Positions 44,742 through 59,877 of a stretch of 64,000 nt of DNA are shown here, one piece after another; the first letter of the stretch is position 1; every line of letters starts with the position of its first letter. The position numbers were made by a program, and so were the translations under genes. This stretch comes from Acidimicrobiaceae bacterium. Lineage in GTDB: Bacteria > Actinomycetota > Acidimicrobiia > Acidimicrobiales > RAAP-2. The stretch lies in contig PLZW01000037.1 of assembly GCA_003153575.1 (NCBI GenBank), positions 124,001 to 188,000 of the forward strand, given 5' to 3'. The notes below the pieces were generated by a model, which ran no database searches, was not told where the DNA came from, and saw only the letters and a program-made list of their open reading frames with translations.

Positions 44742-46160
44742 TCACGATTGCCGCCGGTCCCGGACCACGGTGGGCAGGAGGGGACCGAAGGAACGGGCCC
44801 GCAGGCACCCGATCCAGACCCCCGTCCCGTAGGCCACGTCGTCGGCCACCGAGGCGGCCACCCACCGGGGGAGGTCGAGGTCCGGCCGCAGCCGGATCCA
44901 GTCGACCACGGGGGGCACCAGGACCAGGGCGGCGGCCGCCCGACGACTCCTGCGCCCCGAGGCAGCCAAGGCGACCAGCCCGGGACCGGCCAGCATGGTG
45001 GCGGCCCGGCCCAGTCCCATCACCGTCCAGCCCGTCCCCGACGCACTCCACCGCCAGGCCTGCCGGGCGGGGATCCCGAGGGGTCGGACCTTCCCGGCCA
45101 GGCGCACGGCCGATGCGGCCACGGCCACGGCGGAGGGCACCGGACGGCCGGCGAGGAGGGCCGCGGCGGCGACGGCGGACGGCGGGCGGAGCTCGACGGG
45201 GGCCAGCAGGCCCGGGTGGCGCTCGGCCAAGGGGGCGGCCGAGGTGCCGTAGCGGAACCGGCGGGCCAGCACGTCGCGCCACCGGTCCGGCTCGCGGTGG
45301 GCCACGACGACCGAGGGGTCGTAGCGGATGCGCCAGCCCGCCGCCCCCAACCGCCACACCAGGTCGACGTCCTCGCCCACCCGCAGCGTCCTGTCGAACC
45401 CACCCACGTCCTCGAGGGCGGAGCGCCGGACCACGAGGGCCGCCGTGGGCACGTACCGGACAGCCCGGCCGGGACCCACCTCGCCCTCGTCGGGACCGAG
45501 GTCCAGGGGGGAGTGGAACCGGCCGAACCGGTGCACGACGCGCCGGTCGGTGCCGGCCGGTGCCGGTGCCGGTCGGACCCGGGGTGCCACTGCACCCACC
45601 TCGGGGTCGGCGAAGTGCCAGACCAGATCGTCCAACCACGCGCCCGGCACGGTGCAGTCGCTGTCGACGAACGCCATCAGGTCCGTCCCCACCTCGGCTG
45701 CCCCCGTGGCCCGCGCCGCGCCGGGGCCACCGTTCGTCTCCCGCCGGATCAATCGGGCGCCGTGCCGGCGGCAGACGTCGACCACGGCATCGGGGCGGTC
45801 GGAGGCGTCGTCGACCACGACGACGGTGGCCCGTCCGTCGAACGAGGCCAGGCATGCGTCGAGTTGGTCGGCGCGGTCGTGCACGGGAACCACCACGGTG
45901 ACCGCGGGGGCGTCGGCCGGTGGACCGGTGGGCGAGGGCCGGCGGGGGTGGGCCATCCCGGCCGCGATCAGGCGTCCGGCCAGGGTCCGGGTGGCGTCGT
46001 GGGCCGGGCCGCCGTCCACCATGGCGTCGAGGGCGTCGGCGCCGGCCGCGGTCAGGGTGAGGACCCGGCCGGGCCGCCCGCCGGCCAGCACCGCGCCGTC
46101 GCCGAAGCGCCGGAGGGAGCGGTCGAGGACCAGGCCGAACCCCTCCGGGAGCATCCCCAT
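44742..46160 (-). CDS. mftF: Mycofactocin glycosyltransferase MftF
   Basis: The 472-residue GT2 protein adds oligoglucose to the mycofactocin precursor. The GT2 core is visible: VTVVVPVHDRADQLDACL, VVVDDASDRPDAV, LMAFVDSDCTVPGAW with the DSD metal motif, and GGFDRTLRVGEDVDLVWRL. The N-terminus GFGLVLDRSLRRFGDGAVL is the MftF-type leader domain, and there are hydrophobic segments at the C-terminus. The ATG at 46160 is chosen, 10 nt after the SDR stop; a second ATG two codons later is possible. It is the last gene of the operon. Confidence 0.9.
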   Translation of the reverse strand: MGMLPEGFGLVLDRSLRRFGDGAVLAGGRPGRVLTLTAAGADALDAMVDGGPAHDATRTLAGRLIAAGMAHPRRPSPTGPPADAPAVTVVVPVHDRADQLDACLASFDGRATVVVVDDASDRPDAVVDVCRRHGARLIRRETNGGPGAARATGAAEVGTDLMAFVDSDCTVPGAWLDDLVWHFADPEVGAVAPRVRPAPAPAGTDRRVVHRFGRFHSPLDLGPDEGEVGPGRAVRYVPTAALVVRRSALEDVGGFDRTLRVGEDVDLVWRLGAAGWRIRYDPSVVVAHREPDRWRDVLARRFRYGTSAAPLAERHPGLLAPVELRPPSAVAAAALLAGRPVPSAVAVAASAVRLAGKVRPLGIPARQAWRWSASGTGWTVMGLGRAATMLAGPGLVALAASGRRSRRAAAALVLVPPVVDWIRLRPDLDLPRWVAASVADDVAYGTGVWIGCLRARSFGPLLPTVVRDRRQS

Positions 46161-46170
46161 CAGATGGGGG

Positions 46171-46977
46171 TCACAGGGCCAGACCGCCGTCCACCGGGAG
46201 GACGGCACCGGTGACGCCGCCCCGGTCCTCGGCGGCCAGCCACACCAGTGCCGAAGCGACCTCGTCGGCCGCCAGCAACCGGCCGACAGGCTGCTGACCG
46301 GCGAACGGCGCGGTGCTGTCGAGGCCGTACAGGCGGGCGCTCTCGGTCAGCATCGCCGTGTCCGTCGAGCCCGGAGAGACGGCGTTGGCGGTGATCCCGG
46401 TCCCGGCCAGTTCGGCGGCCAGTCCCCGTACCAGCCCGGCCACGCCGGCCTTCGCCGCACCGTAGGCGGACAGGTGGGGCAGTCCCTGGGTGGCGGCGGC
46501 CGATGCCACCACCAGGTAGCGGGCCTGGCGCGGGGCCGGCCGCCGGAGCAGGGCCGGCACCCCGACCCGGGCGGCGGCGATGGGTCCGCCGAGGTCGACG
46601 TCGAGCACGGCGGCCAGTTCGGCGGCCGGCATCTCCCACAGGGGCACGCCGCCGGCGATGACCCCGGCCACGGCCACCATGGCGTCGAGCCCGCCGAAGC
46701 GCTCCTCGGCCAGGGCCACGGCAGCACCCAGGGCCGCCTCGTCGGTGGTGTCGGCCACGTAGGCCACCACCCCGCCCGGCGACGCCGCGTCGCGTGACCG
46801 CGCCGCCCGGGCGACCACGTCCTCCAGCTCGGCGCGGGTGCCCATGGCGTAGGAGAGGCGCGGGTCGTCGCCGCACCGGTCGACGGCCACCACCGACCAT
46901 CCGGCTGTGGCCAGGGCCACGACGGTGGCCGCACCGATCCCGCGTGCCGCACCGGTGACGACCGCCACCCTGCTCAT
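46171..46977 (-). CDS. Mycofactocin-associated SDR oxidoreductase
   Basis: The 268-residue short-chain dehydrogenase has NAD motif TGAARGIG and catalytic YGAAK. An insertion after the second strand (DDPRLSYAMGTRAELEDVV) fits the SDR subfamilies that accompany mycofactocin and keep NAD bound. It would reduce mycofactocin while oxidising an alcohol. The ATG overlaps the mftE stop (ATGA). Confidence 0.82.
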   Translation of the reverse strand: MSRVAVVTGAARGIGAATVVALATAGWSVVAVDRCGDDPRLSYAMGTRAELEDVVARAARSRDAASPGGVVAYVADTTDEAALGAAVALAEERFGGLDAMVAVAGVIAGGVPLWEMPAAELAAVLDVDLGGPIAAARVGVPALLRRPAPRQARYLVVASAAATQGLPHLSAYGAAKAGVAGLVRGLAAELAGTGITANAVSPGSTDTAMLTESARLYGLDSTAPFAGQQPVGRLLAADEVASALVWLAAEDRGGVTGAVLPVDGGLAL

Positions 46978-47699
46978 CTGGTGACCTCGCTGCCCATGCC
47001 TGCACCTCGCATCTCGGACCGCCGGTGGAGCCCGGCGACCATGGTGGCCAGGTCGGCGGCTGCCGCCCGGATCAAGCGGCTTCCCTCGTCGGCCGCCGCC
47101 CCGGTCGGGTCCCCGAGGATCCCGGTGGGGCTGACCGAGCGCACGCCACCGGCTCGCAACAAGGGGAGCAGCTCGGCCCCACCCCGGGTGTCGCCGGGGG
47201 TGGCCCGGTCGAGCCGCACCCGGTCCGGGGCGATGGCCAGCATCAGTGACGTCTCGGTCCGTCCGGCGTGGAGGTCGCCGGCCCAGGGTGGCGACCACCC
47301 CGTCACCGGGTGCCCCTCGGCGGCGAGGCGGCCGAGTGCGCGGGCGAACGGCGAAGCGTTGCCGCCGTGGGTGCAGGCCAGGACCACGTGGGCGAAGTCG
47401 CGCACCGCCGAACGGCCGAGCTCGACCAGCACTGCCTCGATGGCCTCCTGCCCGATGGAGACGGTGCCGGCGAACCTGTCGTGCTCGCCGCTCGAGCCGT
47501 AGGCCATCGCCGGGGCGACGACCAGGTGGTGGTCGAGCACCGCGGCCGCCTCGACGACGGCCACGGCGATGTCGGTGTCGGTGGTGACGGGAAGGTGGGG
47601 ACCGTGTTGTTCGGTGGCCCCGATCGGGACGACCAGGACAGCACCATCCCCGGCCCAGCGGGCAGCGTCAGGCCAGGCCGCATCGGCCAGCCGGTTCAC
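46974..47699 (-). CDS. mftE: Mycofactocin peptidase MftE (creatininase family)
   Basis: The 241-residue protein has the creatininase-family metal motifs VVPIGATEQHGPHLPVTTDT, VLACTHGGN and WAGDLHAGRTETSLML. MftE is the metallopeptidase that releases the C-terminal Val-Tyr-derived dipeptide (AHDP) from the modified MftA peptide. The GTG at 47699 overlaps the ETF-beta stop (GTGA). Position and motifs make the call firm. Confidence 0.92.
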   Translation of the reverse strand: MNRLADAAWPDAARWAGDGAVLVVPIGATEQHGPHLPVTTDTDIAVAVVEAAAVLDHHLVVAPAMAYGSSGEHDRFAGTVSIGQEAIEAVLVELGRSAVRDFAHVVLACTHGGNASPFARALGRLAAEGHPVTGWSPPWAGDLHAGRTETSLMLAIAPDRVRLDRATPGDTRGGAELLPLLRAGGVRSVSPTGILGDPTGAAADEGSRLIRAAAADLATMVAGLHRRSEMRGAGMGSEVTR

Positions 47700-48670
47700 G
47701 GTGCACCTGCCTCAGGGGCGACATCTTCCGCATCGATGTAGCCGTGTCGGGCCAGAAAGGACAGGAGCACATCAGCCGCCTCGGCAGCGTCGGCCGGGTG
47801 CACGACGGTCGGCGGGTCGTGGGCCACCAGCGCCCCGGTCAGGGCGAGCAGCCGCAGCCTCGGATCGTGGCCCTCCGGCGCAGGTATGACCCGGGTGCGC
47901 GGCGCGTACGGCCGGGTGGCACCGATGTGGAGGACCCCTGTTCCGGCGGCGGATCCGGCGGCGGTCCGACCGGTCGACCGGTCGACCGGTACGGCCGCGT
48001 CGGCGACGGCCAGGGCCCCGGCCAACGACGCCCGCCGGAGCCGCACGCCAGCACCCTCCACCGAGCAGACGGCGGGTAGGAGGACCCGCAGGCGCTCGCG
48101 CCACCCGGCGTCGAGTCGGCGCTCGACCACCACCGCCTCCGGGCCGTCCGACCGGAGGGCGACCAGGCCGAGGGCCTGGGCGGCACCCAACTCGTGGGCC
48201 AGGAAGGCGGGCAGGGCGCCGGTGCCGCGGTCGACCGAACGGTCGCCGCACACCACGAGGACGGGGCGGCCGAACGGGCGGACGGCGGCCAGGACCGTCT
48301 CGGCCAGGCCGTGCTCGTCCTCGGCCAGCTCGGCCACGTAGCGGTGGCCGTCGCTGTCGTGTGCGGAGGGGACCCGGACGACCGTCACGCCGAGGGCGGC
48401 CACGTCCCGGAGGATCGGATCGATCGACTCGGGGCCGACCGCGACGGCAACGACCCGGCCGTCCCATGACTCGGCCATCCGCAGCGCCTGCTCGAGGCCG
48501 GCGGCGTCGGCCGGGGAGAGTCCGACGCCGAGCGGGTCGCGGGAGATCGAGCCGTCGAGCGGGTCGACCGTTGCCCGCAGGTCGGTGATGCGCAGGCAGG
48601 CCACCACCAGCGGGCCCGCTGCGGAGTCGTCGGGGGCAGCGACGACAGGGGACACGTTCGGTCCGGTCAT
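47696..48670 (-). CDS. fixA: Electron transfer flavoprotein beta subunit (FixA-like)
   Basis: The 324-residue protein resembles ETF beta: VACLRITDLRATVDPLDG near the N-terminus, PADAAGLEQALRMAE and LVVCGDRSVDRGTGALPAFLA in the middle, and RRLDAGWRERLRVLLPAVCSVE near residue 190. It is longer than a typical ETF beta (about 260), mostly at the C-terminus. ETF shuttles electrons from dehydrogenases to a quinone reductase. It overlaps the ferredoxin-like gene stop (ATGA). The gene order alpha-FixC-FixX-beta in this operon is a mycofactocin-linked ETF set. Confidence 0.83.
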   Translation of the reverse strand: MTGPNVSPVVAAPDDSAAGPLVVACLRITDLRATVDPLDGSISRDPLGVGLSPADAAGLEQALRMAESWDGRVVAVAVGPESIDPILRDVAALGVTVVRVPSAHDSDGHRYVAELAEDEHGLAETVLAAVRPFGRPVLVVCGDRSVDRGTGALPAFLAHELGAAQALGLVALRSDGPEAVVVERRLDAGWRERLRVLLPAVCSVEGAGVRLRRASLAGALAVADAAVPVDRSTGRTAAGSAAGTGVLHIGATRPYAPRTRVIPAPEGHDPRLRLLALTGALVAHDPPTVVHPADAAEAADVLLSFLARHGYIDAEDVAPEAGAP

Positions 48671-48981
48671 CCGTGGTGGAAGACGACGCCGTGACCGCCG
48701 TCGGGGTAGGTCCACGTGATGGCGCCCTCCGAGTCGCAGACCATGTAACAGGTCCCGCACTCGAAGCACTCCTCGTAATTGAACAGGATGCCGCCGTCGG
48801 AGGTCGGGGCGAACAGGTTGGCCGGGCAGGCGCTGACGCAGGCCTTGGTCGTGCACGACCGGCACACCTCGGCGTCGACGGCGATGTGGGCCCGGGCCCC
48901 GACCCGGAAGTCGACGGTGGCCATGCGCTCCTCGAAGGAGATCCCGTCCCACGGGCTGCGGCCCGGCGCCGGGCCGCTCAT
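48667..48981 (-). CDS. fixX: FixX-like ferredoxin protein
   Basis: The 104-residue protein has the FixX pattern: EVCRSCTTKACVSACPANL and NYEECFECGTCYMVCDSEGAITWTYP. These give up to two iron-sulfur sites, of which the second (CFECGTC) is the [4Fe-4S] of the ETF:quinone reductase. It pairs with FixC in the membrane-associated complex. The ATG overlaps the FixC stop (ATGA). Confidence 0.88.
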   Translation of the reverse strand: MSGPAPGRSPWDGISFEERMATVDFRVGARAHIAVDAEVCRSCTTKACVSACPANLFAPTSDGGILFNYEECFECGTCYMVCDSEGAITWTYPDGGHGVVFHHG

Positions 48982-50300
48982 CCGAAGATCCTCAGGCCCC
49001 GCAGGGTGTCGCCGGCCAGCTGCCGGAGGGTTACCCCGTGCCGGGCCGCCGCCGCCCGGGTCACCTTCAGCCCGCCGGCCTTGGGCGTCGGGTTGGTCAC
49101 GGTGAACATCCCCTCGGCCAGGTCGCACAGCAGCCCGGGGTAGCGCTGCTGGACCCGGTCGGACAGGACCAGGGACGGCGCCTTGCGCAGGCGCTTGTGA
49201 TCGGCGAGGACGAACTGGCCCTCGAGGTCGGCCCGGTAGGAGGCGAGCCCCCGGGCCGTGCAGTCGCCGGCGGTCAGCGCCCGGTCGACCGCCTGGCCGG
49301 CCGCGTAGCCCGACCCGATGGCGAAGTTGACCCCCTCCAGCCACAGCCCGGCGGCCAGGGTCATGGCCCCGGCGTCCCCCGCGATGAGCAGGCCGTCGGC
49401 GGCCAGTGCCGGCATGGTGTCGTAGCCGCCCTCGGGGATGAGGTGCGCCGAGTATTCGCGCAGGGTCAAACCCCGCAGTAGCGGGGCGATGGTCGGGTGG
49501 GCCTTCAGGTCGGCCACCAGCTCCTCGGGTCGCACCCCCGAGGCGGCCAGCTGCGGCAGGGACAGGACCACGCCGATGCTGACCGAGTCGGCGTTGGTGT
49601 AGAGGAAGCCGCCCCCCGGTATGTCCCGCGTGCAGCCGAGGATCTCCATGTCGACGCCCTCGTGGTCCTGGACGCCGAAGCGCTCGTTGATGGCGCCCGG
49701 CGGGAGGTCGAGCACCTCCTTGACCCCCAGGGTGTGGTGCGACGCCTCGGCCCGGGACAGCAGGCCGGCCTCCTTGGCCAGGAACGAGTTGACCCCGTCG
49801 CAGGCGATGACCACCGGTGCGTGGAGCTCGGCGCCGTCGCGGTCGGTGCGGACCCCGACCACCCGGCCGGCACCGTCGCGCACCAGGCCCGTCGCCACCG
49901 TCGAGGTGACGAGACGGGCCCCGGCCTCGGTGGCCTTGCCGGCCAGCCACGCGTCGAAGTGGGACCGCAGTGTGGTCATCCCGTTGTAGGGGGCGGCACC
50001 CCAGGCATCGGTGCGGAAGTCGACGGACAGCGACTGGGTGCCGGTCATCATCACGGTGGAGCGCCGCACCACCCACCGCTCGACGGGCACCTCGTCCCAC
50101 CAGCCGGGAATGATCCCGTCGAGCACCCGGCCGTAGACCACGCCGCCGTAGACGTTCTTCGACCCGGGGAACGGGCCGCGCTCGACGAGTACCACGGACC
50201 GGCCGGCCCGGGCCAGGGCCAGGGCCGCCGAGGCACCGGCCGGGCCGGCACCCACCACCACGGCGTCGAACGCGGCGACGTCGGTCCGCGGCTCAGGCAC
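48978..50300 (-). CDS. fixC: ETF:quinone oxidoreductase flavoprotein (FixC-like)
   Basis: The 440-residue FAD protein has the dinucleotide motif VVGAGPAGASAALALARAG, the FixC hallmark ERGPFPGSKNVYGGVVYG, and a second FAD contact LLIAGDAGAMTLAAGLWLEG. It transfers electrons from ETF to the quinone pool, with FixX as small partner. GTG at 50300, overlapping the ETF-alpha stop by 8 nt. It is embedded in the mycofactocin operon. Confidence 0.9.
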   Translation of the reverse strand: MPEPRTDVAAFDAVVVGAGPAGASAALALARAGRSVVLVERGPFPGSKNVYGGVVYGRVLDGIIPGWWDEVPVERWVVRRSTVMMTGTQSLSVDFRTDAWGAAPYNGMTTLRSHFDAWLAGKATEAGARLVTSTVATGLVRDGAGRVVGVRTDRDGAELHAPVVIACDGVNSFLAKEAGLLSRAEASHHTLGVKEVLDLPPGAINERFGVQDHEGVDMEILGCTRDIPGGGFLYTNADSVSIGVVLSLPQLAASGVRPEELVADLKAHPTIAPLLRGLTLREYSAHLIPEGGYDTMPALAADGLLIAGDAGAMTLAAGLWLEGVNFAIGSGYAAGQAVDRALTAGDCTARGLASYRADLEGQFVLADHKRLRKAPSLVLSDRVQQRYPGLLCDLAEGMFTVTNPTPKAGGLKVTRAAAARHGVTLRQLAGDTLRGLRIFG

Positions 50301-51324
50301 CGGTTACTCCGGCGGGCTGGTCGGCCCCGTCGTCGACGCCCAGTCGTCGGGCCAGCTCGGCCAGGAGACCGCCGGCGTCAGTCACCAGGCCGAGGTCGGC
50401 CATGGCCGTCATCGGACACGACGGGTCGGTGTTCACGCTCACCACGTGGCGCGGGGTGCCCAGGCCGCCGGTGTGCTGCGCGGCGCCCGACACCCCGAGG
50501 GCCACGTACAGGTCGGGGTCGACCGTCACCCCGGTGGTCCCGATCTGGCGCTCGTAGCCGGTCCACCCGGCATCGGTGGCCACCCGGGTGGCGCCCGCCG
50601 ATCCCCCGAGGGCGGCGGCCACCGCGCCGAGCAGGGTGAAGACCCCGGTGGCCCGGTAGTCGTCGAGCCCGGCGACCAGGCCTGCGCCCCCCGCCACCAC
50701 CCGGGTGGCGTCCGCCAGATCCATGGTGTGGAGATCGGGCTCGAGGAGCTCGAGCAGTTCCGGATCGCACGTCGACCCTTCCGGCCCGACGGCCAGGGAC
50801 AGCTCGATGATCCCGGCCTCGGGCGACGCGGCCCCATCGGCGTGGGGTGCAGGGCGGCCGCCCACGGCGAGGGTCACCACGGCCGGCCCGGCCACGTCCA
50901 CCGGGACCAGCACGCGGTCGTCGATCCTGGTCACGACGGCCCGCACCCCGGCACCGTCGGCGGACACCGCCGCCGTCAGGGCCCGGGCCACCAGGGGCCG
51001 ACCGGTGGCCGCGGCCAGGCGTGGGGCCAGGTCCCGACCGTCGGGCGAGGCGGGCAGGAGGACCAGTGTCTCGTCGGCGACCACGTCACGGAGGGCGGCG
51101 GCCAGTGCGGCAGGCCGGAAGCCCGGCCCGGTGTCGGCCCAGCGGCCGTGGCACACGCCGGCCAGCGAGCCGAGCGCCTCCGCGGTGCCGGAGCCGACCA
51201 CCACCACGCGCCCACCGGCCTCGGCCACCGCCTCGGCGGCCCCGACGGGCAGCCGGCCGTCGCGCGCCACGACCACCGCTATGGCGCTGCCGGCATCGTT
51301 CACTGGGGGAGGGTCCGGGCTCAC
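50293..51324 (-). CDS. fixB: Electron transfer flavoprotein alpha subunit (FixB-like)
   Basis: The 343-residue protein has the ETF-alpha C-terminal FAD domain: GATRVATDAGWTGYERQIG, GTTGVTVDPDLYVALGVSG, AAQHTGGLGTPRHVVSVNTD and CPMTAMADLGLV. It should bind FAD together with the beta subunit. It is encoded 26 kb from other fatty-acid genes but inside the mycofactocin operon. GTG at 51324 overlaps the OYE stop (GTGA). Confidence 0.9.
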   Translation of the reverse strand: MSPDPPPVNDAGSAIAVVVARDGRLPVGAAEAVAEAGGRVVVVGSGTAEALGSLAGVCHGRWADTGPGFRPAALAAALRDVVADETLVLLPASPDGRDLAPRLAAATGRPLVARALTAAVSADGAGVRAVVTRIDDRVLVPVDVAGPAVVTLAVGGRPAPHADGAASPEAGIIELSLAVGPEGSTCDPELLELLEPDLHTMDLADATRVVAGGAGLVAGLDDYRATGVFTLLGAVAAALGGSAGATRVATDAGWTGYERQIGTTGVTVDPDLYVALGVSGAAQHTGGLGTPRHVVSVNTDPSCPMTAMADLGLVTDAGGLLAELARRLGVDDGADQPAGVTGA

Positions 51325-53288
51325 AGTGCCACCGCCACCCGGTGGCCCTCGATGACGGCGGCGTGGGCCCGTCGGGGGGCCAGGCAGTCACCGATCCGGT
51401 GGACCTCGAACGGCGCACCGTCGAGTGCCCGCCACAGGTCGTCGTCGGGCTGCTGGTGGACCGAGCAGACCACCCAGTCGCAGTGCCGGTCCCGGTCGGT
51501 GCCGGTGGGGTGGTGCTGCAGGGTCAGTACCAGGTGCGGACCGCCCTCGTCGGATCGCGTCACGCCCATCGGCACCAGGTCGACGCTCTGTTCGATGCCT
51601 TTGGCGTGCGCCTTGACGTTCCACGTCTCCAGATCGAGGGTGATGCCCAGGTCCTGGCCCACCACCATCCCGTTGGTCACGATCTCCACCCTGCAGCCCC
51701 GGTCGGCCAGCAGCTCGGCGGTCGACGTGGCCTGGTGGAAGCCCAACTCGTCGACCACCACCACCCGGCCCTCCGGATGGACCCGACCCTCCAGGACGTC
51801 GCGCACGTCGACCACCCGGTCGTCGTCGCCGGCCCACCACGGCCGCGACGGCTTCGCCCCGGTGGCCACGACGACCGCGTCGGGCGACTCCGCCCCGACC
51901 AGTGCGGCGGTGGCCTCCACGCCGGTCCGCAGGTCGACCCCGGCGCGACGGGCGGCCACGATCAGATTGCGGGCGATGTCGAAGAACTCGGCGCGGCTCG
52001 GCACGCTGGCCGCCACCTGGGCCTGGCCGCCGAGCCGGTCGTGCCGTTCGAAGAGCACGACCCGATGGCCCCGTTCGGCCGCCGTCACCGCTGCCTGGAG
52101 CCCGCCCGGGCCGCCGCCCACCACCACGACCTTGCGGCGTCGACGGGGCCGGGGCACGATCGCCGACTCACGACCGGTGCGGGGGTTCTCGATGCAGCCC
52201 AGCCACCGGTTGAGGCCCATCCGGCCGACGCACTCCTGGTTGCACGACAGGCAGGTGCGGATGTCGGTGGCGTGACCCGATCGGGCCTTGACGGCGAAGT
52301 CGGGGTCGGCGATCTGGCCGCGCACCACCCCCACCAGGTCGCACACGCCGTCGGCCAGGGCCCGTTCGGCCTGGAGCGGGTCCTTGAAGCGGCCCACGCC
52401 CACCACCGGCAGGTCCACGGCGGCGCGGATGGCGCTCGGGATGAACAGGGCGTAGCCGGGCGGCACCTGCATGCTGGCCTCGATCATGTAGAGGGTGGCC
52501 GTCGCCACCCCGATCGACGTGTTGATGTAGTCCACCTGGCCGGAGGCCTCGACCATCCGGGCGACCGCTACGGCGTCCTCGATTCCCGTGCCCCCGTCGA
52601 TCAGCTCGTCCCCGCAGAGGCGCACGCCGAGGGCCCGGTCGGCACCGATGGTGGACCGCACCGCCTCGACGATCTCGAGCAGGAGCCGGGCCCGGTTGGC
52701 CAACGACCCGCCGTACCCGTCGGTCCGGCGGTTGGTGGCGAGCGAGAGGAAGCCCCGGACGATCGATGAGTGGGAGCACTGCAGCTCGATGCCGTCGAAC
52801 CCGCCGGCCGTGCAGTGGGCGGCCACCGTGGCGTAGCCGTCGATGATCTCGGCGATCTCGTGCGGCTCCACCGCCTTCGGGACTTCGCGGAAGAGCGGGT
52901 CGGGCACCGGGCTCGGCGCCCACACGGGCAGGCGGGAGTACATCGAGGAGGCCTGTCCGCCGTTGTGGTTGATCTGGGCGAAGACGGGCACGTCGTGGGC
53001 GTGCACGGCATCGGTGATCCGTCGGTAGCCGTCGACGACCTCGGGGTGGAACCCGTGGATCAACTTCTCGTAGGGCCAGTCGGTCGGATGGGTCGAGTGT
53101 TCCTCGGTGATGATGAGCCCCGCCCCGCCGGCGGCCCGGGCCGCGTAGTAGGCGGCGTGCTGCTCGGTGGGGAGACCGTCGGTGGCGTAGTTGGTGAGGT
53201 GGGCGGCGAACACGACGCGGTTGGGCACGGTGACCGGGCCCAACCGCAGCGGGGTGAACAGGTGCCGGTACCGGCCGCCGGAGCTCAC
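51321..53288 (-). CDS. Mycofactocin-system OYE/FadH-family oxidoreductase, paralogue 1
   Basis: The 655-residue protein resembles 2,4-dienoyl-CoA reductase (FadH)/trimethylamine dehydrogenase. It has an N-terminal FMN TIM barrel (residues about 1-360), a [4Fe-4S] motif CLSCNQECVGRMGLNRWLGC, and a C-terminal FAD/NAD(P) domain (KVVVVGGGPGGLQAAVTAAERG). Two such paralogues occur in some mycofactocin loci. It starts with GTG 53288, 25 nt after the SDR stop, so it opens a sub-run of overlapping genes. The substrate is not known. Confidence 0.9.
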   Translation of the reverse strand: MSSGGRYRHLFTPLRLGPVTVPNRVVFAAHLTNYATDGLPTEQHAAYYAARAAGGAGLIITEEHSTHPTDWPYEKLIHGFHPEVVDGYRRITDAVHAHDVPVFAQINHNGGQASSMYSRLPVWAPSPVPDPLFREVPKAVEPHEIAEIIDGYATVAAHCTAGGFDGIELQCSHSSIVRGFLSLATNRRTDGYGGSLANRARLLLEIVEAVRSTIGADRALGVRLCGDELIDGGTGIEDAVAVARMVEASGQVDYINTSIGVATATLYMIEASMQVPPGYALFIPSAIRAAVDLPVVGVGRFKDPLQAERALADGVCDLVGVVRGQIADPDFAVKARSGHATDIRTCLSCNQECVGRMGLNRWLGCIENPRTGRESAIVPRPRRRRKVVVVGGGPGGLQAAVTAAERGHRVVLFERHDRLGGQAQVAASVPSRAEFFDIARNLIVAARRAGVDLRTGVEATAALVGAESPDAVVVATGAKPSRPWWAGDDDRVVDVRDVLEGRVHPEGRVVVVDELGFHQATSTAELLADRGCRVEIVTNGMVVGQDLGITLDLETWNVKAHAKGIEQSVDLVPMGVTRSDEGGPHLVLTLQHHPTGTDRDRHCDWVVCSVHQQPDDDLWRALDGAPFEVHRIGDCLAPRRAHAAVIEGHRVAVAL

Positions 53289-53313: not shown

Positions 53314-54153
53314 TCACCGGGCCGACGCCCCGGCGTCGACGGTCATGGTCAGTCCGGTCACGTAGCGGGCCTCGTCGGAGGCCAGGAACAGGACGGCGTT
53401 GGAGACGTCCTCGGACCGGACGAGGTCGACCGGGAGCGAGTTGAGGAAGAGCGACCCGACGTCGGGGCTGGCCTCGATCCGCTCGGTCAGACCGGACATG
53501 GCGTTGAGCATGGGGGTGTCGACCCCGGTGGGGTGGAGCGAGTTGACCCGGATGTGCTTGGAGGCCAGTTCGTTGGCGAGGCTCCGCATGATCCCGACCA
53601 GCCCGTGCTTGGACGCCACGTACGGGGTCAGGAAGGGCTGGCCTTTCAGCCCGGCGGTGGAGCTGACCAGGATCATCGACCCGCTTCCGGCCTCGAGGAG
53701 GTGGGGGATCGACGCCACACAGGTGTTCCACACACCGGTCAGGTTGATGCCGACCACCGTGTCCCACAGTTCCGGGGTCACCTCGTCCCACCGCTGGATC
53801 GAGCACACGCCGGCGTTGGCCACGGCGATGTCGAGTCGCCCGAGCCTCTCCACACCGTCGGCCACTGCGTCGGCCAGGCCCGAGGCATCGCGCACGTCCA
53901 CGGCGTGGGTCACCACCCGGGCCCCGGTGTCCTCGACCAGCCTCGCGGTGTCAGCCAGGTCCTCCGGCGTGGCCGTGGCGTACTCCACGTCGGCCACCTG
54001 GGCACAGATGTCGACGGCGATGATGTCCGCTCCTTCGGCGGCCAGGCGCCGCGCGTGGCTCCGGCCCTGGCCGCGGGCGGCTCCGGTGACCAGTGCCACC
54101 TTGCCGGCCACCCGGCCCGTCGCCCGGTCGATGCCGCTGTCGGCAGTGCTCAC
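53314..54153 (-). CDS. Mycofactocin-coupled SDR family oxidoreductase
   Basis: The 279-residue SDR has the NAD motif TGAARGQG and catalytic YVASK (Y-x3-K), plus the insert ICAQVADVEYATATPEDLAD that marks the mycofactocin-coupled SDR class. In this class NADH is non-exchangeable and is re-oxidised by mycofactocin. GTG at 54153 overlaps the OYE-2 stop (GTGA). The physiological alcohol is not known. Confidence 0.9.
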   Translation of the reverse strand: MSTADSGIDRATGRVAGKVALVTGAARGQGRSHARRLAAEGADIIAVDICAQVADVEYATATPEDLADTARLVEDTGARVVTHAVDVRDASGLADAVADGVERLGRLDIAVANAGVCSIQRWDEVTPELWDTVVGINLTGVWNTCVASIPHLLEAGSGSMILVSSTAGLKGQPFLTPYVASKHGLVGIMRSLANELASKHIRVNSLHPTGVDTPMLNAMSGLTERIEASPDVGSLFLNSLPVDLVRSEDVSNAVLFLASDEARYVTGLTMTVDAGASAR

Positions 54154-56138
54154 GTTGCCGCTCCTGTCGTGGTGGGGATCCGTCCGGCGGGCACCAGCCC
54201 GCCGATCTCGAGGGCGCGGCGCCGCCCTTCGAGCACGGCGTCCAGCACGGTGCGCGGGGCGACGCAGTCGCCGGCCCGCAACGTGCCGGGATGGTCGAGA
54301 TAGAGGTCCTCGTCGGGAAGGCGGTGGCCGCAGTCGACCAGCACGGCGGCGGGGACGGTGCGGGTCTCGCCCGTCCACGGGTCCTCGAGGTGGACACGGC
54401 CGCCGGCCAGTCGACGCACCAGTGCCCGCAGCTCGCGACGGACGCCGGCCCGCTGGAGGCGCGTATTGGCGTCGGCCAGGTCCCCGGTGAGGGAGAGCAG
54501 AGTGCCGGCGATCTGGTCGGCGGTGGCGAGGGACACCTCGCGCCCGGCCTCGGCCAGCCACTCGGCCACGCCCACGCCGATCGGCCCGCCCGCGGGGTCG
54601 TGCACCACCACCGGGCCGTCGGGCAGTGCCGCGGGACCACCGGCCAGCGCGGAGGCGGCGTCGACGACGGCCACGGTGCCGTCGCCGGGCGGCTCGAACG
54701 GCGCGGGCCGCCCACCGGTGGCGAGGACCACCGTCCACCCCCCGGCCCTGGCCTCGTCGAGGGTGGCCGCCGAGGCGTCGGTGCCGGTCTCGATGGTGAC
54801 GTCCAGCCGCTGACAGGCGGCCTCGAGCCAGTCGGCAAGATCGGCCAGGCGTTCGCGCCCGGGCCCGACAGCGGCGGCCCGCAGGGCCCCGCCGGCCCGG
54901 TCGGTCCGCTCGACGACCCGCACCCGGTGCCCCCGCAGGGCGAGCACCCGTGCGCACTCGAGGCCGGCCGGCCCGGCGCCCACCACGAGGATGTCGTCGG
55001 GCGCCTCGCCGGTCGGGACGATAGCGGCCTCGGGGTCGACGTCGACGGTCTCGTGGCCCGAGCGCGGCTCGCCCACACAGCTGACCAGGGGATTGCGGTT
55101 GTCGCGGACCCGACAGGCCTGGTTGCACAGGATGCACGGCCGGACCTCCCCGGTCCGCCCGGCGCGCACCTTGGCCACCAGTCGGGGATCGGCGATCTGG
55201 GCCCGGGTCATCTCGACCAGGTCGGCGGTGCCGTCGCCCAGGGCCCGCTCGGCCATGGCCACGTCGACCACGCTCCCTTGGAGCACTACCGGGACCTGCC
55301 CGTCCGCGGCCCGGCGCATCGCCGCGCACAGCTCGAGGTTGACGCCGGCCGGCGTATGGGCGTCGGGGCGGTAGGCGGTGGCCGAGTAGGGGCCGCCCCG
55401 GACCACCACCAGCAGGTCGATCCGGTCGGCCAGGGCGGCCACCTGCTCGGCGTCGTGCTCCGGGGTGACCCCGGCCCACGGTGCCAGTTCGTCGCACGAC
55501 AGCCGCAGCCCGACGAGGAAGTCGGGACCGACGGCGGCCCGCACGGCGTCCAGGACCTCCCGGGTCAGCGCCAACCGGTCTTCGCCGTAGGCGTCGTCGC
55601 GCTGGTTGGTCAGCCCCGAGTGGAACTGGCGCAGGACCGAGAGAGGCCCGGCATCGAGTTCCACCCCGTCGAGGCCGGCATCGGCGGCGGCGCGGGCGGC
55701 CGAGACGAACCCCCCGATCAGGGCGGCGATCTCGGTGGTGCCCATGGCCATCGGCATCTCGCGACTGACCACGTCGGCCACCGGTGACGGGGCCCACAGC
55801 ACCGACTGCGAGAAGGCGCTCGACCCGTGCCCACCGGCATGCCCGAGGCCGGCCAGGACCAGGGTCCCGTGGGGTCGGCACGCCTCGAGGACGGCGCGCC
55901 AGCCCGGTCCGCACGCCGAGGCCAGCGGGGCGCGCTCGTAGGGCCAGTCCGACGGATGGACGGAGGCCGTCTCGGTCACCACGACGCCGGCGCCGCCGGC
56001 GGCGCGGGCGGCGAAGTACGCGACATGGCGGTCGCTGAAGGCGCGTCCCGTCCCGAGATTCGTCTCGTGGGGGCCGAACACCACCCGGGACTGCGCCGTG
56101 CGGCCGCCGAGCGCGACCGTCCCGGCGAGGGACGTCAC
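54150..56138 (-). CDS. Mycofactocin-system OYE/FadH-family oxidoreductase, paralogue 2
   Basis: The 662-residue protein has the same plan as the 51,321 gene: FMN barrel, iron-sulfur motif CILCNQACRVRDNRNPLVSC, and a Rossmann domain (DDILVVGAGPAGLECARVLALRG). It is directly downstream of mftC with a GTGA overlap, so it is translated coupled to the radical SAM enzyme. Together with paralogue 1 it may replace other redox partners, such as MftD, in this locus. That role is inference. Confidence 0.9.
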   Translation of the reverse strand: MTSLAGTVALGGRTAQSRVVFGPHETNLGTGRAFSDRHVAYFAARAAGGAGVVVTETASVHPSDWPYERAPLASACGPGWRAVLEACRPHGTLVLAGLGHAGGHGSSAFSQSVLWAPSPVADVVSREMPMAMGTTEIAALIGGFVSAARAAADAGLDGVELDAGPLSVLRQFHSGLTNQRDDAYGEDRLALTREVLDAVRAAVGPDFLVGLRLSCDELAPWAGVTPEHDAEQVAALADRIDLLVVVRGGPYSATAYRPDAHTPAGVNLELCAAMRRAADGQVPVVLQGSVVDVAMAERALGDGTADLVEMTRAQIADPRLVAKVRAGRTGEVRPCILCNQACRVRDNRNPLVSCVGEPRSGHETVDVDPEAAIVPTGEAPDDILVVGAGPAGLECARVLALRGHRVRVVERTDRAGGALRAAAVGPGRERLADLADWLEAACQRLDVTIETGTDASAATLDEARAGGWTVVLATGGRPAPFEPPGDGTVAVVDAASALAGGPAALPDGPVVVHDPAGGPIGVGVAEWLAEAGREVSLATADQIAGTLLSLTGDLADANTRLQRAGVRRELRALVRRLAGGRVHLEDPWTGETRTVPAAVLVDCGHRLPDEDLYLDHPGTLRAGDCVAPRTVLDAVLEGRRRALEIGGLVPAGRIPTTTGAAT

Positions 56139-57400
56139 GTCGCCGTCGGGACGGGCCCGGGCGCGTAGCCGGACAACGGGTGCTCGTCACAGCTGCGGTC
56201 GGGTCGCCGATCCGGCGTGGGCATGCGTATGGCGGCCGGGCCGGGTGCACCGTGGCGGGACGACGTGAGGGCCACCGCCACCTGCCGGGGGCGGGACGAG
56301 TGGTCGGGGGCCGGTCGGGGCGTCTCGATGTCGCCGCGGGCGTCGAGGGCGTGCTCGCCGTGCCCGAGGACGCACTCGGGGTCGGGCCCGTCGAGGGGCA
56401 GCCCGGTGAAGAACTTCGCCGCCATGCAGCCGCCCCGGCAGGCGTCGTAGTGGCCGCAGGACCCACAGGCCCCGGCACTCTGCGGCTGGCGCAGTTCGAG
56501 GAAGAGGTCGGACTGGCGCCACACCGAGGTGAAGCCGCCCGATGCGCGCACATTGCCGGCCAGGAACTCGTCGTGGATGGCGAAGGGGCAGGCGTAGACG
56601 TCGCCCACCGGGTCGACCAGGCACACCACCCGACCGGCGCCGCACAGGTTGAGGCCGGGCAGCGCGTCCCCGAAGCCGGCCAGGTGGAAGAACGAGTCGC
56701 CGGTCAGGACCTCCTCGCCCCGCCGGACCAGCCAGTCGTAGAGTTGGCGTTGCTGGGCAGCCGTGGGGTGGAGTTCGTCCCACACGTCGGCGCCCCGGCC
56801 CGACGGGCGCAGACGGGTGAGCCGCAGCTGGGCGCCGTAGTGGTCGGCCATCTCTAAGAAGCGGTCGAGCTGGCCCACGTTGTGCCGGGTGACCACCACT
56901 GACAGCTTGGAGCCGGTGAAGCCGGCGGCCGCCAGGCGCTCCATGGCGGTGACGGCGGTGGCGAACGAACCCTCGCCCCGGACGGCGTCGTTGACCTCGG
57001 CGTCGGCCCCGTCGAGGGAGATCTGCACGTCCACGTAGTCGCTGGCGGCCAGGCGGGCCGCCACCGCCTCCGTGATCCGCGACCCGTTGGTCGAGAACTT
57101 CACCCCGACGCGGTGGTCGGTGGCGTAGTCGACGAGTTCCCAGAAGTCCGACCGGATGGTCGGCTCGCCCCCGCCGATGTTCACGTAGAAGATCTGCATG
57201 CGCTCGAACTCGTCGATGAGCGCTTTGCACTCAGCGGTCGAGAGTTCGCGCGGGTCGCGCCGACCGGAGCTCGACAGGCAGTGCACGCAGGCCAGGTTGC
57301 AGGCGTAGGTGAGCTCCCAGGTCAGACAGATGGGGGCGTCGAGGCCCCGCTCGAAGCGGTCGACCAGACGGGTCCCCGTGCCCGGGGCGACGACGGTCAC
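56135..57400 (-). CDS. mftC: Mycofactocin radical SAM maturase MftC
   Basis: The 421-residue enzyme has the radical SAM motif CNLACVHC (C34, C38, C41) and a C-terminal SPASM region with C-rich clusters (CLVDPVGDVYACPFA; CGSCGHYDACRGGC). MftC decarboxylates the C-terminal Tyr of MftA and then joins it to the neighbouring Val. After the SPASM domain there is an unusual Pro/Arg-rich tail of about 60 residues (from about 360). GTG at 57400 overlaps the mftB stop. Confidence 0.95.
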   Translation of the reverse strand: MTVVAPGTGTRLVDRFERGLDAPICLTWELTYACNLACVHCLSSSGRRDPRELSTAECKALIDEFERMQIFYVNIGGGEPTIRSDFWELVDYATDHRVGVKFSTNGSRITEAVAARLAASDYVDVQISLDGADAEVNDAVRGEGSFATAVTAMERLAAAGFTGSKLSVVVTRHNVGQLDRFLEMADHYGAQLRLTRLRPSGRGADVWDELHPTAAQQRQLYDWLVRRGEEVLTGDSFFHLAGFGDALPGLNLCGAGRVVCLVDPVGDVYACPFAIHDEFLAGNVRASGGFTSVWRQSDLFLELRQPQSAGACGSCGHYDACRGGCMAAKFFTGLPLDGPDPECVLGHGEHALDARGDIETPRPAPDHSSRPRQVAVALTSSRHGAPGPAAIRMPTPDRRPDRSCDEHPLSGYAPGPVPTAT

Positions 57401-57696
57401 GCCACCCGCTCGCAGATCATCCCGGAGTCGACCAGCAGGCCGAGCGCCCGTTCGTAGTCACCCAGTTCCTCGGCGGGGACGCCGGCGGACCGGCAGGCCT
57501 CGAGGCCCGACGGCTGGTCGGCCAGCGACTGCACCACGGCCAGCAGGGTGCGGCTCTTCAGGAACGAGAGCCGACGGGTGCCGAAGTGGTAGGCGAGGGC
57601 GCCGAACGACTCGGGCCGGAGCGCCACCTGGGGATGGAGGGCGTAGGGCCGGGAAGGGTCGAAGGGCGCCGCTGACGGCGGGGAGAGGGGGGGCAT
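57397..57696 (-). CDS. mftB: Mycofactocin peptide chaperone MftB
   Basis: The 99-residue protein is a PqqD-like peptide-recognition domain that presents MftA to MftC. HPQVALRPESFGALAYHFGTRRLSFLKSRTL is the MftB signature, and the C-terminal helix ends with SGMICERVA. ATG 57696 is preferred to the 17-codon-longer frame, which reads as Pro-rich leader. It starts 35 nt after mftA and overlaps mftC by 4 nt. Confidence 0.93.
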   Translation of the reverse strand: MPPLSPPSAAPFDPSRPYALHPQVALRPESFGALAYHFGTRRLSFLKSRTLLAVVQSLADQPSGLEACRSAGVPAEELGDYERALGLLVDSGMICERVA

Positions 57697-57731
57697 GGTG
57701 GGGCCGGGTCCGTGGGGGTTCCGCTGCGGGC

Positions 57732-57878
57732 CTAGTAGACGCCGCACATCCCGTCGATGGACACGTCCTCGACCAGCAGGTCACCCTCCACCAGGGCTTC
57801 GGGGGTGGCGGTCGAGGCCATTCCGGCCTCGTCGCCGGTGGTCGCCGGGGTGGTCTCCTCGGTCGTAGTGACGGTCAT
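57732..57878 (-). CDS. mftA: Mycofactocin precursor peptide MftA
   Basis: A 48-residue peptide ends in the diagnostic IDGMCGVY. Its C-terminal Val-Tyr is the part converted to mycofactocin, while the preceding Thr/Glu-rich leader is removed. ATG 57878 follows GGAGGATCC. It heads the 13-kb operon that continues through mftB and mftC. It is too short for many gene callers. Confidence 0.96.
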   Translation of the reverse strand: MTVTTTEETTPATTGDEAGMASTATPEALVEGDLLVEDVSIDGMCGVY

Positions 57879-57925
57879 GGATCCTCCGATGGTCGGCCGG
57901 CTCAGAGCCGGGTTCGGGTCAGTGG

Positions 57926-57941: not shown

Positions 57942-57960
57942 TGGATGCCAAAATGAAAGC

Positions 57961-57984
57961 ATGACGACCGGAGCGGCCGGATGA
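57961..57984 (+). other. Seven-codon micro-ORF overlapping the mftR start
   Basis: ATG ACG ACC GGA GCG GCC GGA TGA encodes MTTGAAG. Its stop overlaps the mftR ATG (ATGA at 57981-57984), like the coupled overlaps elsewhere. It could be a leader for translational coupling, or mftR could simply start there by chance. Confidence 0.35.
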
Positions 57985-58601
57985 CGAACACCGGGGGGGC
58001 GGTGCCCGAGGTGACCCGGGGCCGGCCGGCGAGCACCACCCGCCAGGACGTGGCCCGGGTCGCCCTCGACCTCTTCGCCCGCCAGGGCTACGACGAGACC
58101 ACGGTCGACGAGATCGCCGTGGCCGTCGGGATCTCGCGGCGGACCTTCTTCCGGTACTACGAGTCGAAGCCCGACGTGGTGTGGGGCGAGTTCGACGCCG
58201 AGCTCGGTCGCCTGCGCGACCGCCTGGCCGAGGCCCCGGACGGCGAGCCGATGATGGACGTGCTGCGACGGTCGGTCATGGCCACCAACCGCTTCGGCGC
58301 CGGCGAGCTCGACGAGCTCCGGATCCGGATGGTCCTCATCGGCTCCGTGCCGACCCTGGTGGCCCACTCCGCCGTCCGCTACGAGGAATGGTGTGAGGTC
58401 GTCGCCGCCTTTGCCGCATCGCGGCTCGGCGGGGCCCCGGACGATCTCGGTCCCCAGACCGTGGCCCGGGCCGCACTGGGAGCGGCCATGGCCGCCTTCG
58501 CCTGCTGGGCGCGTCATGGCAGCGACGACCTGGTCGAGGACGTGGATCGGGCCTTCCGCCTGCTGGCGACGGGGTTCGCCGAGAAGCGGCCGGCGACCTG
58601 A
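57981..58601 (+). CDS. mftR: TetR-family regulator MftR
   Basis: The 206-residue protein has a TetR DNA-binding domain (DVARVALDLFARQGYDETTVDEIAVAVGISRRTFFRYYESKPDVVW) and an acyl-CoA-ligand-type C-terminus. It is divergent from mftA and resembles MftR, which senses long-chain acyl-CoA and controls mycofactocin genes. ATG 57981 overlaps a micro-ORF stop. Confidence 0.9.
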   Translation: MTNTGGAVPEVTRGRPASTTRQDVARVALDLFARQGYDETTVDEIAVAVGISRRTFFRYYESKPDVVWGEFDAELGRLRDRLAEAPDGEPMMDVLRRSVMATNRFGAGELDELRIRMVLIGSVPTLVAHSAVRYEEWCEVVAAFAASRLGGAPDDLGPQTVARAALGAAMAAFACWARHGSDDLVEDVDRAFRLLATGFAEKRPAT

Positions 58602-58688
58602 TCGACAGGGCACAGGCCCAGCGGCCGGCGCCGAATCGTGGGTCGACGCGACCGGGCAGGTGGCGCGATGCTGGGACTTGAACCGCAC

Positions 58689-58706
58689 GGCGCCCCAGGG
58701 GGCGCC
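58689..58706 (+). promoter_or_regulatory. Hairpin in the alcohol dehydrogenase leader
   Basis: GGCGCCC (58689-58695) and GGGCGCC (58700-58706) form a perfect 7-bp stem with loop CAGG. It is 20 nt before the ATG and just upstream of the AAGGGGAGG ribosome-binding site. It may be the mftR terminator or a structural element in the leader. Confidence 0.4.
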
Positions 58707-58725
58707 GGCCCAAGGGGAGGACCAC

Positions 58726-59877
58726 ATGAAGATCCGTGCCGCAGTCTGTTCGGGGCTCCGCGAACCGTGGAAGACCGAGGAGGTCGAGATCGACGCTCCC
58801 CACGCCCACGAGGTCAAAGTCCAGATGGCCTACGCCGGCATGTGCCACTCGGACGAGCACCTGCGCAGCGGCGACATCAGCGTCGAGCCCGAGGTCCTCT
58901 CGGTGTTCGGCGTCGACTCGCTGTTCCCGTGCATCGGTGGCCACGAGGGCGCCGGCATCGTCGTCGAGGTCGGCGACAACGTGGAGACGGTGGCCGTGGG
59001 CGACCACGTGGCCGCCGCCTTCATGCCCGCCTGCGGCACCTGCTTCTGGTGCGCGTCGGGTCGCCAGCACCTCTGCGACCTCGGCATGTTCACGCTGGCC
59101 GGCCCGATGATGAGCGACATGACGTGGCGCCACCACCTGGGCGGGTCGAACGTCAACCGCATGACGCAGCTCGGCACGTTCGCCGACCACATGGTGGTCA
59201 ACGAGGCATCGCTGGTGAAGATCGACCCGAACGCCTCGCTCAAGGCGGCCGCCCTCATCAGCTGCGGCATCTCGACCGGGTTCGGCTCCGCCGTCGACCG
59301 GGCCAAGGTGAAGCCGGGCGAGACGGTGGTGGTCATCGGCTGCGGTGGTGTCGGCTCCGGCGCCCTGCAGGGCGCCCGACTGGCCGGTGCCCGCCAGATC
59401 ATCGCGGTGGACCCCATCCCGTTCAAGCTCGAGAAGGCCAGGCGGATCGGGGCTACCCATACCGCCGACTCCATCCTCGAGGCCAACCTCATGTTGCCCG
59501 AGCTGACCGAGGGTCGGATGGCCGATGTCGTCATCCTGACACCCGGCGTGCTGACCGGCGACCTCATCGCCCCGGCGATGGCGCTCGCCTCCAAGGACGG
59601 TCGGGTGGTCACGACGGCCATCGCCCCGTTCAACCAGAACCAGGTCGACCTCAACCTGTTCAACTTCGCCATGTACAACCAGGCGCTGCTGGGCACGGTG
59701 TTCGGTTCGGTGAGCCCCCGGGTGCAGATCCCCAACCTGCTCCGCCTGTACGAGGCCGGCATGCTGGAGATCGACGACCTGATCACCCAGGAGTACTCGC
59801 TCGACCAGGTCCAGGACGGCTACGACGACCTGGCCGCCGGCACCAACATCCGCGGCATCGTGACGTTCGACATCTGA
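58726..59877 (+). CDS. mdo: Mycofactocin-dependent (NDMA-type) alcohol dehydrogenase
   Basis: The 383-residue zinc alcohol dehydrogenase has catalytic zinc ligands C40, H73 and E74 and structural zinc ligands C103, C106, C109 and C117, followed by a Rossmann fold (VVVIGCGGVGSGALQGARLAG). It resembles the NDMA-dependent nicotinoproteins in which NAD stays bound and mycofactocin acts as electron acceptor. ATG 58726 has AAGGGGAGG upstream. It sits beside mftR, in keeping with co-regulation. The native alcohol is not known. Confidence 0.9.
   Translation: MKIRAAVCSGLREPWKTEEVEIDAPHAHEVKVQMAYAGMCHSDEHLRSGDISVEPEVLSVFGVDSLFPCIGGHEGAGIVVEVGDNVETVAVGDHVAAAFMPACGTCFWCASGRQHLCDLGMFTLAGPMMSDMTWRHHLGGSNVNRMTQLGTFADHMVVNEASLVKIDPNASLKAAALISCGISTGFGSAVDRAKVKPGETVVVIGCGGVGSGALQGARLAGARQIIAVDPIPFKLEKARRIGATHTADSILEANLMLPELTEGRMADVVILTPGVLTGDLIAPAMALASKDGRVVTTAIAPFNQNQVDLNLFNFAMYNQALLGTVFGSVSPRVQIPNLLRLYEAGMLEIDDLITQEYSLDQVQDGYDDLAAGTNIRGIVTFDI

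Follow-up and report, generated by a model that had tools for sequence, protein, structure and literature searches.

The stretch of DNA analyzed here (the window) comprises 64,000 nucleotides of the genome of an Acidimicrobiaceae bacterium (assembly GCA_003153575.1, contig PLZW01000037.1, positions 124,001 to 188,000 of the forward strand) and carries a mycofactocin cluster in which a block of old yellow enzyme (OYE) and electron transfer flavoprotein (ETF) genes is embedded (Table 1). Genes were named with NCBIfam models at their curated cut-offs, which every gene having its own model passes, and mftA and fixX were read directly; the gene set and coordinates proposed in a first-pass annotation are real on these grounds. 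Its two OYE labels had been reversed, the gene of family OYE_1 (TIGR03996) being the one that adjoins mftC and that of OYE_2 (TIGR03997) the one that adjoins etfA. The presence of mftB, mftC, mftE, and mftF above their cut-offs, together with an mftA with a VY core, identifies the locus as a mycofactocin cluster, and both mycofactocin-associated ETF subunits (NF038209 and TIGR04503) are also above cut-off. NCBIfam family names already tie these OYE and ETF families to mycofactocin. The minus-strand genes, with the ETF/FixCX set co-linear as first described, run in the order mftA, mftB, mftC, OYE1, SDR1, OYE2, etfA, fixC, fixX, etfB, mftE, SDR2, mftF. They are likely to form one transcription unit, because adjacent genes either overlap by 4–38 bases or are separated by gaps of 25–56 bases; SDR1, a short-chain dehydrogenase/reductase (SDR) gene with a GTG start, overlaps OYE1 by 4 bases. 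The fixC product scores 314.6 bits with the FixC model PRK10157, under that model's cut-off of 610, and its best solved relative is the FixC of structure 7koe (E 2.5e-70). The NDMA-dependent alcohol dehydrogenase (ADH), divergent from the run, is likely a mycofactocin client.

Table 1. Genes of the mycofactocin locus in the window, with model scores and curated cut-offs in bits.
Gene	Product	Position	Strand	Basis and remarks
mftF	Glycosyltransferase	44742..46208	-	TIGR03965, 392.6 (cut-off 280); true start perhaps further in
SDR2	Mycofactocin-coupled SDR	46171..46977	-	TIGR04504, 318.9 (cut-off 250); start approximate
mftE	Peptidase	46974..47699	-	TIGR03964, 261.1 (cut-off 172)
etfB	Mycofactocin-associated ETF beta	47696..48610	-	TIGR04503, 330.9 (cut-off 200); start approximate
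fixX	Ferredoxin-like partner of FixC, 104 aa	48667..48981	-	Read directly; adjoins fixC in relatives
fixC	ETF:quinone oxidoreductase-like flavoprotein	48978..50300	-	Named from best matches
etfA	Mycofactocin-associated ETF alpha	50293..51324	-	NF038209, 388.0 (cut-off 240)
OYE2	FadH/OYE family oxidoreductase 2	51321..53288	-	TIGR03997, 1015 over residues 9-654 (cut-off 793.15); OYE-1 of the first-pass annotation
SDR1	Mycofactocin-coupled SDR	53314..54153	-	TIGR03971, 358.7 (cut-off 300); GTG start
OYE1	FadH/OYE family oxidoreductase 1	54150..56138	-	TIGR03996, 928.5 (cut-off 627.9); OYE-2 of the first-pass annotation
mftC	Radical SAM maturase	56135..57400	-	TIGR03962, 657.6 (cut-off 265)
mftB	Peptide chaperone	57397..57747	-	TIGR03967, 106 (cut-off 33); true start perhaps further in
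mftA	Precursor peptide, 48 aa	57735..57878	-	Read directly; C-terminus IDGMCGVY
mftR	TetR-family regulator, divergent	57981..58601	+	TIGR03968, 240.2 (cut-off 224.9)
ADH	NDMA-dependent alcohol dehydrogenase, divergent	58729..59877	+	TIGR03989, 483.2 (cut-off 440); 58729 is the beginning of the model match, start not set

The window shares mftA, mftB, mftC, mftE, mftF, and mftR, as well as nicotinoprotein-type SDR/ADH partners, with the classical mftABCDEF cluster (M. tuberculosis type), but it has OYE1-SDR1-OYE2-etfA-fixC-fixX-etfB in place of mftD, and no mftG. The absence of both genes, first noticed at the locus, extends to the whole assembly (G000; 2.98 Mb, 76% complete), in which neither is over cut-off and the best matches are 30.8 bits for mftD (TIGR03966; cut-off 470.85) and 39.5 bits for mftG (TIGR03970, GMC oxidoreductase; cut-off 387.45). 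Three other genomes of the same genus (G639, G718, and G799; 93–95% complete), searched for mftD alone, contain none over cut-off and carry OYE2 and the block. MftD is, to our knowledge, the only enzyme described as making the redox-active part of mycofactocin. The cyclised core, 3-amino-5-[(4-hydroxyphenyl)methyl]-4,4-dimethyl-2-pyrrolidinone (AHDP), must be deaminated to premycofactocin, and an M. smegmatis delta-mftD strain is reported to pile up AHDP and to make no mycofactocin (PMC7491314). The family TIGR03966 itself was described as occurring in the majority of mycofactocin species but absent from some, and its role as difficult to deduce (Haft 2011, PMC3023750).

The distribution of mftD and OYE2 was surveyed within the phylum of the window, using an even draw of 396 genomes from the phylum, 53 of them with mftC over cut-off, and 395 genomes from the window's class, 96 of them with mftC, of which 25 were already in the phylum sample. 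Combined, the two draws, in which mftD played no part in the selection, give 124 distinct mftC genomes. In the phylum draw, mftD is over cut-off in 44 of the mftC genomes and OYE2 in nine, and these nine are exactly the genomes without mftD, none of the 44 with mftD having OYE2. The mycofactocin-type etfB is over cut-off in eight genomes, all belonging to the nine without mftD. OYE1 accompanies OYE2 in eight of the nine, over cut-off in seven and broken by a contig end in G322. In the ninth mftD-less genome (G186), OYE2, an etfA-like gene, fixC, fixX, and a sub-cut-off etfB-like gene accompany a distantly related mftC (335.5 bits), and there is no OYE1 over cut-off and no mftE by tblastn. Many other OYE-family matches occur in this genome (locus L018), 20 in the OYE_1 search and 27 in the OYE_2 search.

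OYE2 without mftD was found in 40 of the 96 mftC genomes of the class draw, and among the 71 that were new, mftD is over cut-off in 37 and OYE2 in 31. Three genes below the OYE2 cut-off of 793.15 bits were also counted, namely those of G581 (787 bits), G542 (764), and G748 (675), the G542 protein being matched over its length and the other two in part only; the best other matches to the OYE_2 model in both samples reach at most 580 bits. With these included, 80 of the 124 genomes have mftD only, 42 have OYE2 only, one has both, and one has neither, and at strict cut-offs the corresponding numbers are 80, 39, one, and four. The genome with both (G693) has two mftC genes, one in a cluster with mftD and the other with neither mftD nor OYE2 near, and its OYE1-OYE2-etfA-fixC-fixX-etfB block lies on a third contig (loci L171, L157, and L215). 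The genome with neither (G605) has an mftC broken at a contig end, and two genomes of its genus have mftD.

Both types were found within families f1, f2, f3, f4, f12, and f85, within f82 through G693, and within two genera, g1 (that of the window) and g255. In the mftC tree of the unconditioned set (110 rows, 14 of the 124 genomes having been left out, four with truncated mftC and ten of the mftD type outside the class), mftD changes 17 times and OYE2 18 times. Averaged over 200 pairings, OYE2 moves opposite to mftD in 6.9 of the seven supported independent pairs, and in no pair do the two move together (p 0.0156 by sign test, range to 0.0312). A larger tree of 134 rows gives 19 changes, at least nine of them forced by starred branches; it adds the second mftC of G693 and 23 isolates chosen for OYE2 without mftD, and only the 110-row test is fair. 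Within the genus of the window, G784 has ADH, mftR, mftA, mftB, mftC, mftE, SDR2, and mftF in the window's order, with OYE1-SDR1-OYE2-etfA-fixC-fixX-etfB missing and 30 bases between the end of the mftC match and the mftE match; its mftD is on a separate contig, and no OYE2 match was found in this genome at E up to 1e-100. Little was gained from a tree of mftD, in which the place of the G784 gene is unsupported.

The gene mftG is distributed otherwise, being over cut-off in 12 of the 53 mftC genomes of the phylum draw, all of family f37, and missing from 41, of which 33 have no mycofactocin-type etfB over cut-off. The absence of mftG is ordinary, and it is the absence of mftD that is the unusual feature. 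Since mftG is usually absent anyway and OYE2 is present exactly where mftD is missing, the OYE2/ETF set would stand in for mftD, not for mftG. The first-pass annotation had regarded the ETF/FixCX set as an outlet for reduced mycofactocin. The co-linearity behind that idea holds, also among relatives, where OYE2 usually adjoins etfA, fixC, fixX, and etfB; the part that is less well supported is the role as MftG substitute, because OYE2 and etfB follow the absence of mftD and not that of mftG. On these data the set more likely serves the MftD step of biosynthesis than recycling, which could be a second duty.

A complementary sample was obtained starting from OYE2, by scanning named genomes with an OYE2 alignment and retaining the best 80 of 354 relatives. 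Whole-genome searches were run on 50 of the 80, namely 33 isolates, 11 loci without mftC in view, and 6 others (hand-chosen). This sample overlaps the mftC samples (at least G442 = G799, G443 = G531, and L095 = G294), and the counts are not additive. Around the 80 OYE2 genes, many of whose loci are cut by contig ends, etfA was found in 77, fixC in 75, OYE1 in 75, fixX in 71, etfB in 70, and mftC in 59, and mftD had no match within the examined flanks. At the genome level, mftC is over cut-off in 48 of the 50. Six OYE1-OYE2-etfA blocks (L036, L038, L052, L055, L057, and L087) show no mftC in the examined flanks, and four of them have an mftR-like gene; all include fixC, fixX, and etfB except L036, which is cut short, and mftC lies elsewhere in five of the six genomes, none having been found in that of L036 (G430).

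When loci with OYE2 over 82% identity were left out, the median identity to the window was 74% for OYE2, 70% for MftC, 75% for fixX, 66% for fixC, 53% for etfA, and 42% for mftF, so that the conservation of OYE2 matches that of MftC and exceeds that of etfA, etfB, mftE, and mftF. SDR1, SDR2, and ADH were ruled out as MftD substitutes, since SDR2 and ADH are found in clusters of the mftD type too and OYE2-type clusters often lack SDR1. OYE2-type clusters occur in isolates of Amycolatopsis, Saccharopolyspora, Prauserella, Kutzneria, and Streptomyces, which are aerobes, and a need of anaerobes for an O2-free route as the sole driver is not supported.

Full-length profile and fold searches with OYE2 matched first 2-naphthoyl-CoA reductase (NCR, 6qkg) and 2,4-dienoyl-CoA reductase (FadH, 1ps9), with 28–29% identity and query TM scores of 0.85–0.86, and then histamine dehydrogenase, 6l6j (entitled 6-hydroxypseudooxynicotine amine oxidase in its structure entry), and trimethylamine dehydrogenase (TMADH). 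We know of no link between NCR or FadH and mycofactocin. The predicted model of OYE2 (mean pLDDT 75, with low confidence in several barrel loops, so that no argument is made from the pocket) shows an OYE-type barrel and two Rossmann-type domains, with query TM scores of 0.81 for 3k30, 0.80 for 6l6j, and 0.80 for 2tmd. The 4Fe-4S motif CX2CX3CX11C is present in 29 of 29 and in 9 of 9 OYE2 rows, and the first Rossmann motif in 29 of 29 proteins, but GxGxxG appears in the second Rossmann domain of none of the 29; FadH, unlike OYE2, has the glycine motif GCGGIG. Searched alone, this second domain retrieved 6l6j (E 8.7e-7), histamine dehydrogenase (2.9e-6), NCR (1.8e-5), and, marginally, TMADH (0.34), with no match to FadH 1ps9 at E up to 10. 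OYE2 thus shares with the ETF-linked amine dehydrogenases (Pno/6l6j, histamine dehydrogenase 3k30/6de6, and TMADH 1djn) the full-length three-domain OYE fold, the 4Fe-4S motif, and a second Rossmann domain without the NAD(P) motif, the last also a feature of NCR; identity to these enzymes by fold alignment is 23–27%, and the substrate of OYE2 is putative. With Pno it further shares the adjoining genes for EtfAB and ETF:quinone oxidoreductase. The block also resembles FixABCX/EtfABCX systems in having separate fixC and fixX genes with etfA and etfB, the FixC of the window being nearest to that of 7koe, but it differs in having dedicated ETF subfamilies (NF038209 and TIGR04503) inside a mycofactocin locus.

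These observations probably reflect a variant route in which OYE2 replaces MftD on AHDP and the electrons pass via EtfAB and FixC/FixX to quinone. MftABC and MftE, whose families are all present, would make AHDP as usual. OYE2, a putative flavoprotein with a 4Fe-4S motif and an FAD/ADP-type domain, would then carry out the oxidative deamination of AHDP to premycofactocin in the place of MftD. Because OYE2 is without the usual NAD(P) glycine motif, its electrons would go to the dedicated EtfAB encoded by the adjoining genes, and from there, as in related enzymes, presumably through FixC/FixX to the quinone pool. A precedent is provided by Pno, an enzyme of the TMADH/histamine dehydrogenase group with FMN, 4Fe-4S, and ADP, which is reported to oxidise a C-N bond with oxygen derived from water and to reduce EtfAB, re-oxidised in turn by an ETF:quinone oxidoreductase, the genes being clustered (PMC7688666). 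The OYE2-etfA-fixC-fixX-etfB block, usually with OYE1, may accordingly be described as a candidate non-homologous replacement of MftD, swapped repeatedly in Actinomycetota. By this route the cofactor could be completed without O2 acting as the direct electron acceptor.

Of the two OYE paralogues, OYE2 is the more likely to act on AHDP, because among the nine mftD-less genomes of the phylum draw OYE1 is missing only in G186. OYE1 could help OYE2 or re-oxidise mycofactocinol. A tentative extension, which we hold possible rather than probable, is that one quinone-linked module serves both the making and the recycling of mycofactocin, with OYE2 as an O2-free premycofactocin synthase, OYE1 as a mycofactocinol dehydrogenase that regenerates the spent cofactor, and a shared ETF/FixCX. 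If true, one cofactor could be wired in two interchangeable ways, either by MftD with MftG (or another oxidase) or by OYE2 together with OYE1 and ETF-FixCX.

Several observations weigh against OYE2 as a replacement of MftD. Over its whole length, OYE2 is nearer to NCR and FadH, which are reductases of CoA substrates, than to the amine dehydrogenases, both by sequence and by fold, and NCR, a reductase, is also without GxGxxG in the aligned stretch, so that loss of the motif argues against NAD(P) but is by itself no proof of amine oxidation. In addition, none of 29 OYE2 proteins has a Cys at residues 20–36, the site of the 6-S-cysteinyl FMN of TMADH and histamine dehydrogenase, although the Pno group is not so linked either, the FMN being reported as not covalent in a relative of Pno with 82% identity (PMC7688666). 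Because OYE1 and OYE2 occur together in eight of the nine genomes, their distribution does not in itself show which of the two acts on AHDP or whether they do so jointly. Strict exclusion is called into question chiefly by the OYE2-based sample, in which mftD is over cut-off in 9 of the 50 genomes, and a tenth (Amycolatopsis rhizosphaerae) has mftD split over two contig ends. Two of the nine, Saccharopolyspora ipomoeae and S. sp. HNM0986, carry a second mftC with an adjoining mftD (S. ipomoeae has another mftD apart), and in the other seven no mft gene was found near mftD in the examined DNA, the Pseudonocardia bannensis gene being at a contig end. Two further genomes, G418 and G420 (loci L079 and L081), have two mftC each and no mftD over cut-off. 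Finally, OYE2 is in view in 24 of the 40 mftC-centred loci of OYE2-type genomes, some of which are cut by contig ends; mftD is in view in 37 of 68 such loci of mftD-type genomes, and OYE2 and mftD can each lie away from mftC. As a separate observation, the stand-alone mftD genes of Saccharopolyspora and Pseudonocardia with OYE2-type clusters (L104, which begins at a contig end, L107, L108, L109, L110, L112, and L113) have no mft neighbours in view, and the mftD tree contains a starred set of seven rows (99) that includes the Pseudonocardia mftD, nearest to the Saccharopolyspora ones; six Saccharopolyspora and one Pseudonocardia stand-alone mftD appear to make up this set.

An alternative closer to the first-pass annotation is that ETF/FixCX, with OYE1 or OYE2, re-oxidises mycofactocinol to quinone in the role of MftG, the loss of mftD being compensated otherwise or secondary. 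The co-linearity of these genes with the mft genes and the absence of MftG are in its favor, and a flavin dehydrogenase could accept mycofactocinol (H-C-OH) as well as AHDP (H-C-NH2), since a single group distinguishes them; the replacement of MftG in the quarter of mftC genomes without it was also left open in the published account (eLife 2025, PMC11778925). This alternative appears unlikely, as most mftG-less mftC genomes have no mycofactocin-type etfB over cut-off, OYE2 tracks the absence of mftD without exception in the 53-genome sample, and the AHDP step would be left unexplained in 42 genomes. More doubtful still is a different end product, for which AHDP would skip the standard deamination and the OYE/ETF enzymes would perform some other modification, so that MftD is unneeded. 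Two OYE paralogues are more than one deamination needs, the nearest solved relatives of OYE2 are reductases, and the product of a window-type cluster is here a predicted one. Yet the window retains MftE, MftF, and the VY core of MftA, the cluster is adjoined by ADH and SDR families of the kind that goes with ordinary mycofactocin, and S. erythraea, of a genus with mftD-less TIGR03997 clusters but possibly with an mftD elsewhere in its genome, is reported to make methylated mycofactocin (PMC11162802, citing another paper).

It is very improbable that the OYE/ETF block is a catabolic passenger that uses mycofactocin, its opposition to mftD reflecting lineage or habitat. OYE-family reductases are common catabolic enzymes, and some blocks lie apart from mftC (G091, G188, and G294) or on another contig (G693), as a passenger might. 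Against this stand the 17–18 changes on the mftC tree, where OYE2 and mftD move together in none of the supported pairs, the occurrence of both types within the genera and families named above, the single genome among 124 with neither gene, and the conservation of OYE2 at the level of MftC. The preferred reading, replacement of MftD by OYE2, points to a single candidate enzyme family and a single electron path, and suitable organisms are at hand, among them the soil isolates S. hirsuta, S. kobensis, and Amycolatopsis xylanica, in which mftD is not over cut-off.

Clusters of this kind have been noted before in Saccharopolyspora, where 17 clusters with mft genes and the FadH/OYE oxidoreductase TIGR03997, but without mftD, were reported and their function was called unknown (BGCFlow, Nucleic Acids Res. 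2024, PMC11162802). The section of that paper on Saccharopolyspora names no ETF/FixCX and gives no survey beyond the genus and no mechanism; some Saccharopolyspora were found here to have mftD elsewhere in the genome. The same source reports that antiSMASH 6.1.1 misses mftD-less mycofactocin clusters, and the present results fit cluster-finding rules that demand mftD missing OYE2-type clusters. In the open-access literature, no paper linking mycofactocin with electron transfer flavoprotein or FixC was found (subscription papers lay outside the search), TIGR03997 appeared only in the BGCFlow paper, no relevant paper on mycofactocin and old yellow enzyme was retrieved, and titles and abstract beginnings mentioned no alternative to MftD. 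Judged by these searches, the mutual replacement across phylum and class, its repetition, the link with ETF/FixCX, the swap within a genus, and the mechanism are new.

Two minor features of the window may be added. On the same strand after the ADH gene, positions 59950-61341 encode an amidohydrolase of the TRZ/ATZ/N-ethylammeline chlorohydrolase type, for which all listed named models are below cut-off. In the FAD domain of the window's etfA product, the sequence reads GGAG where two of three solved ETFs compared have GRG and the third (CarE) has Met; at the position of that Arg, nine aligned rows of ETF alpha have A, N, Q, or M. A residue change at this position may shift the flavin potential.

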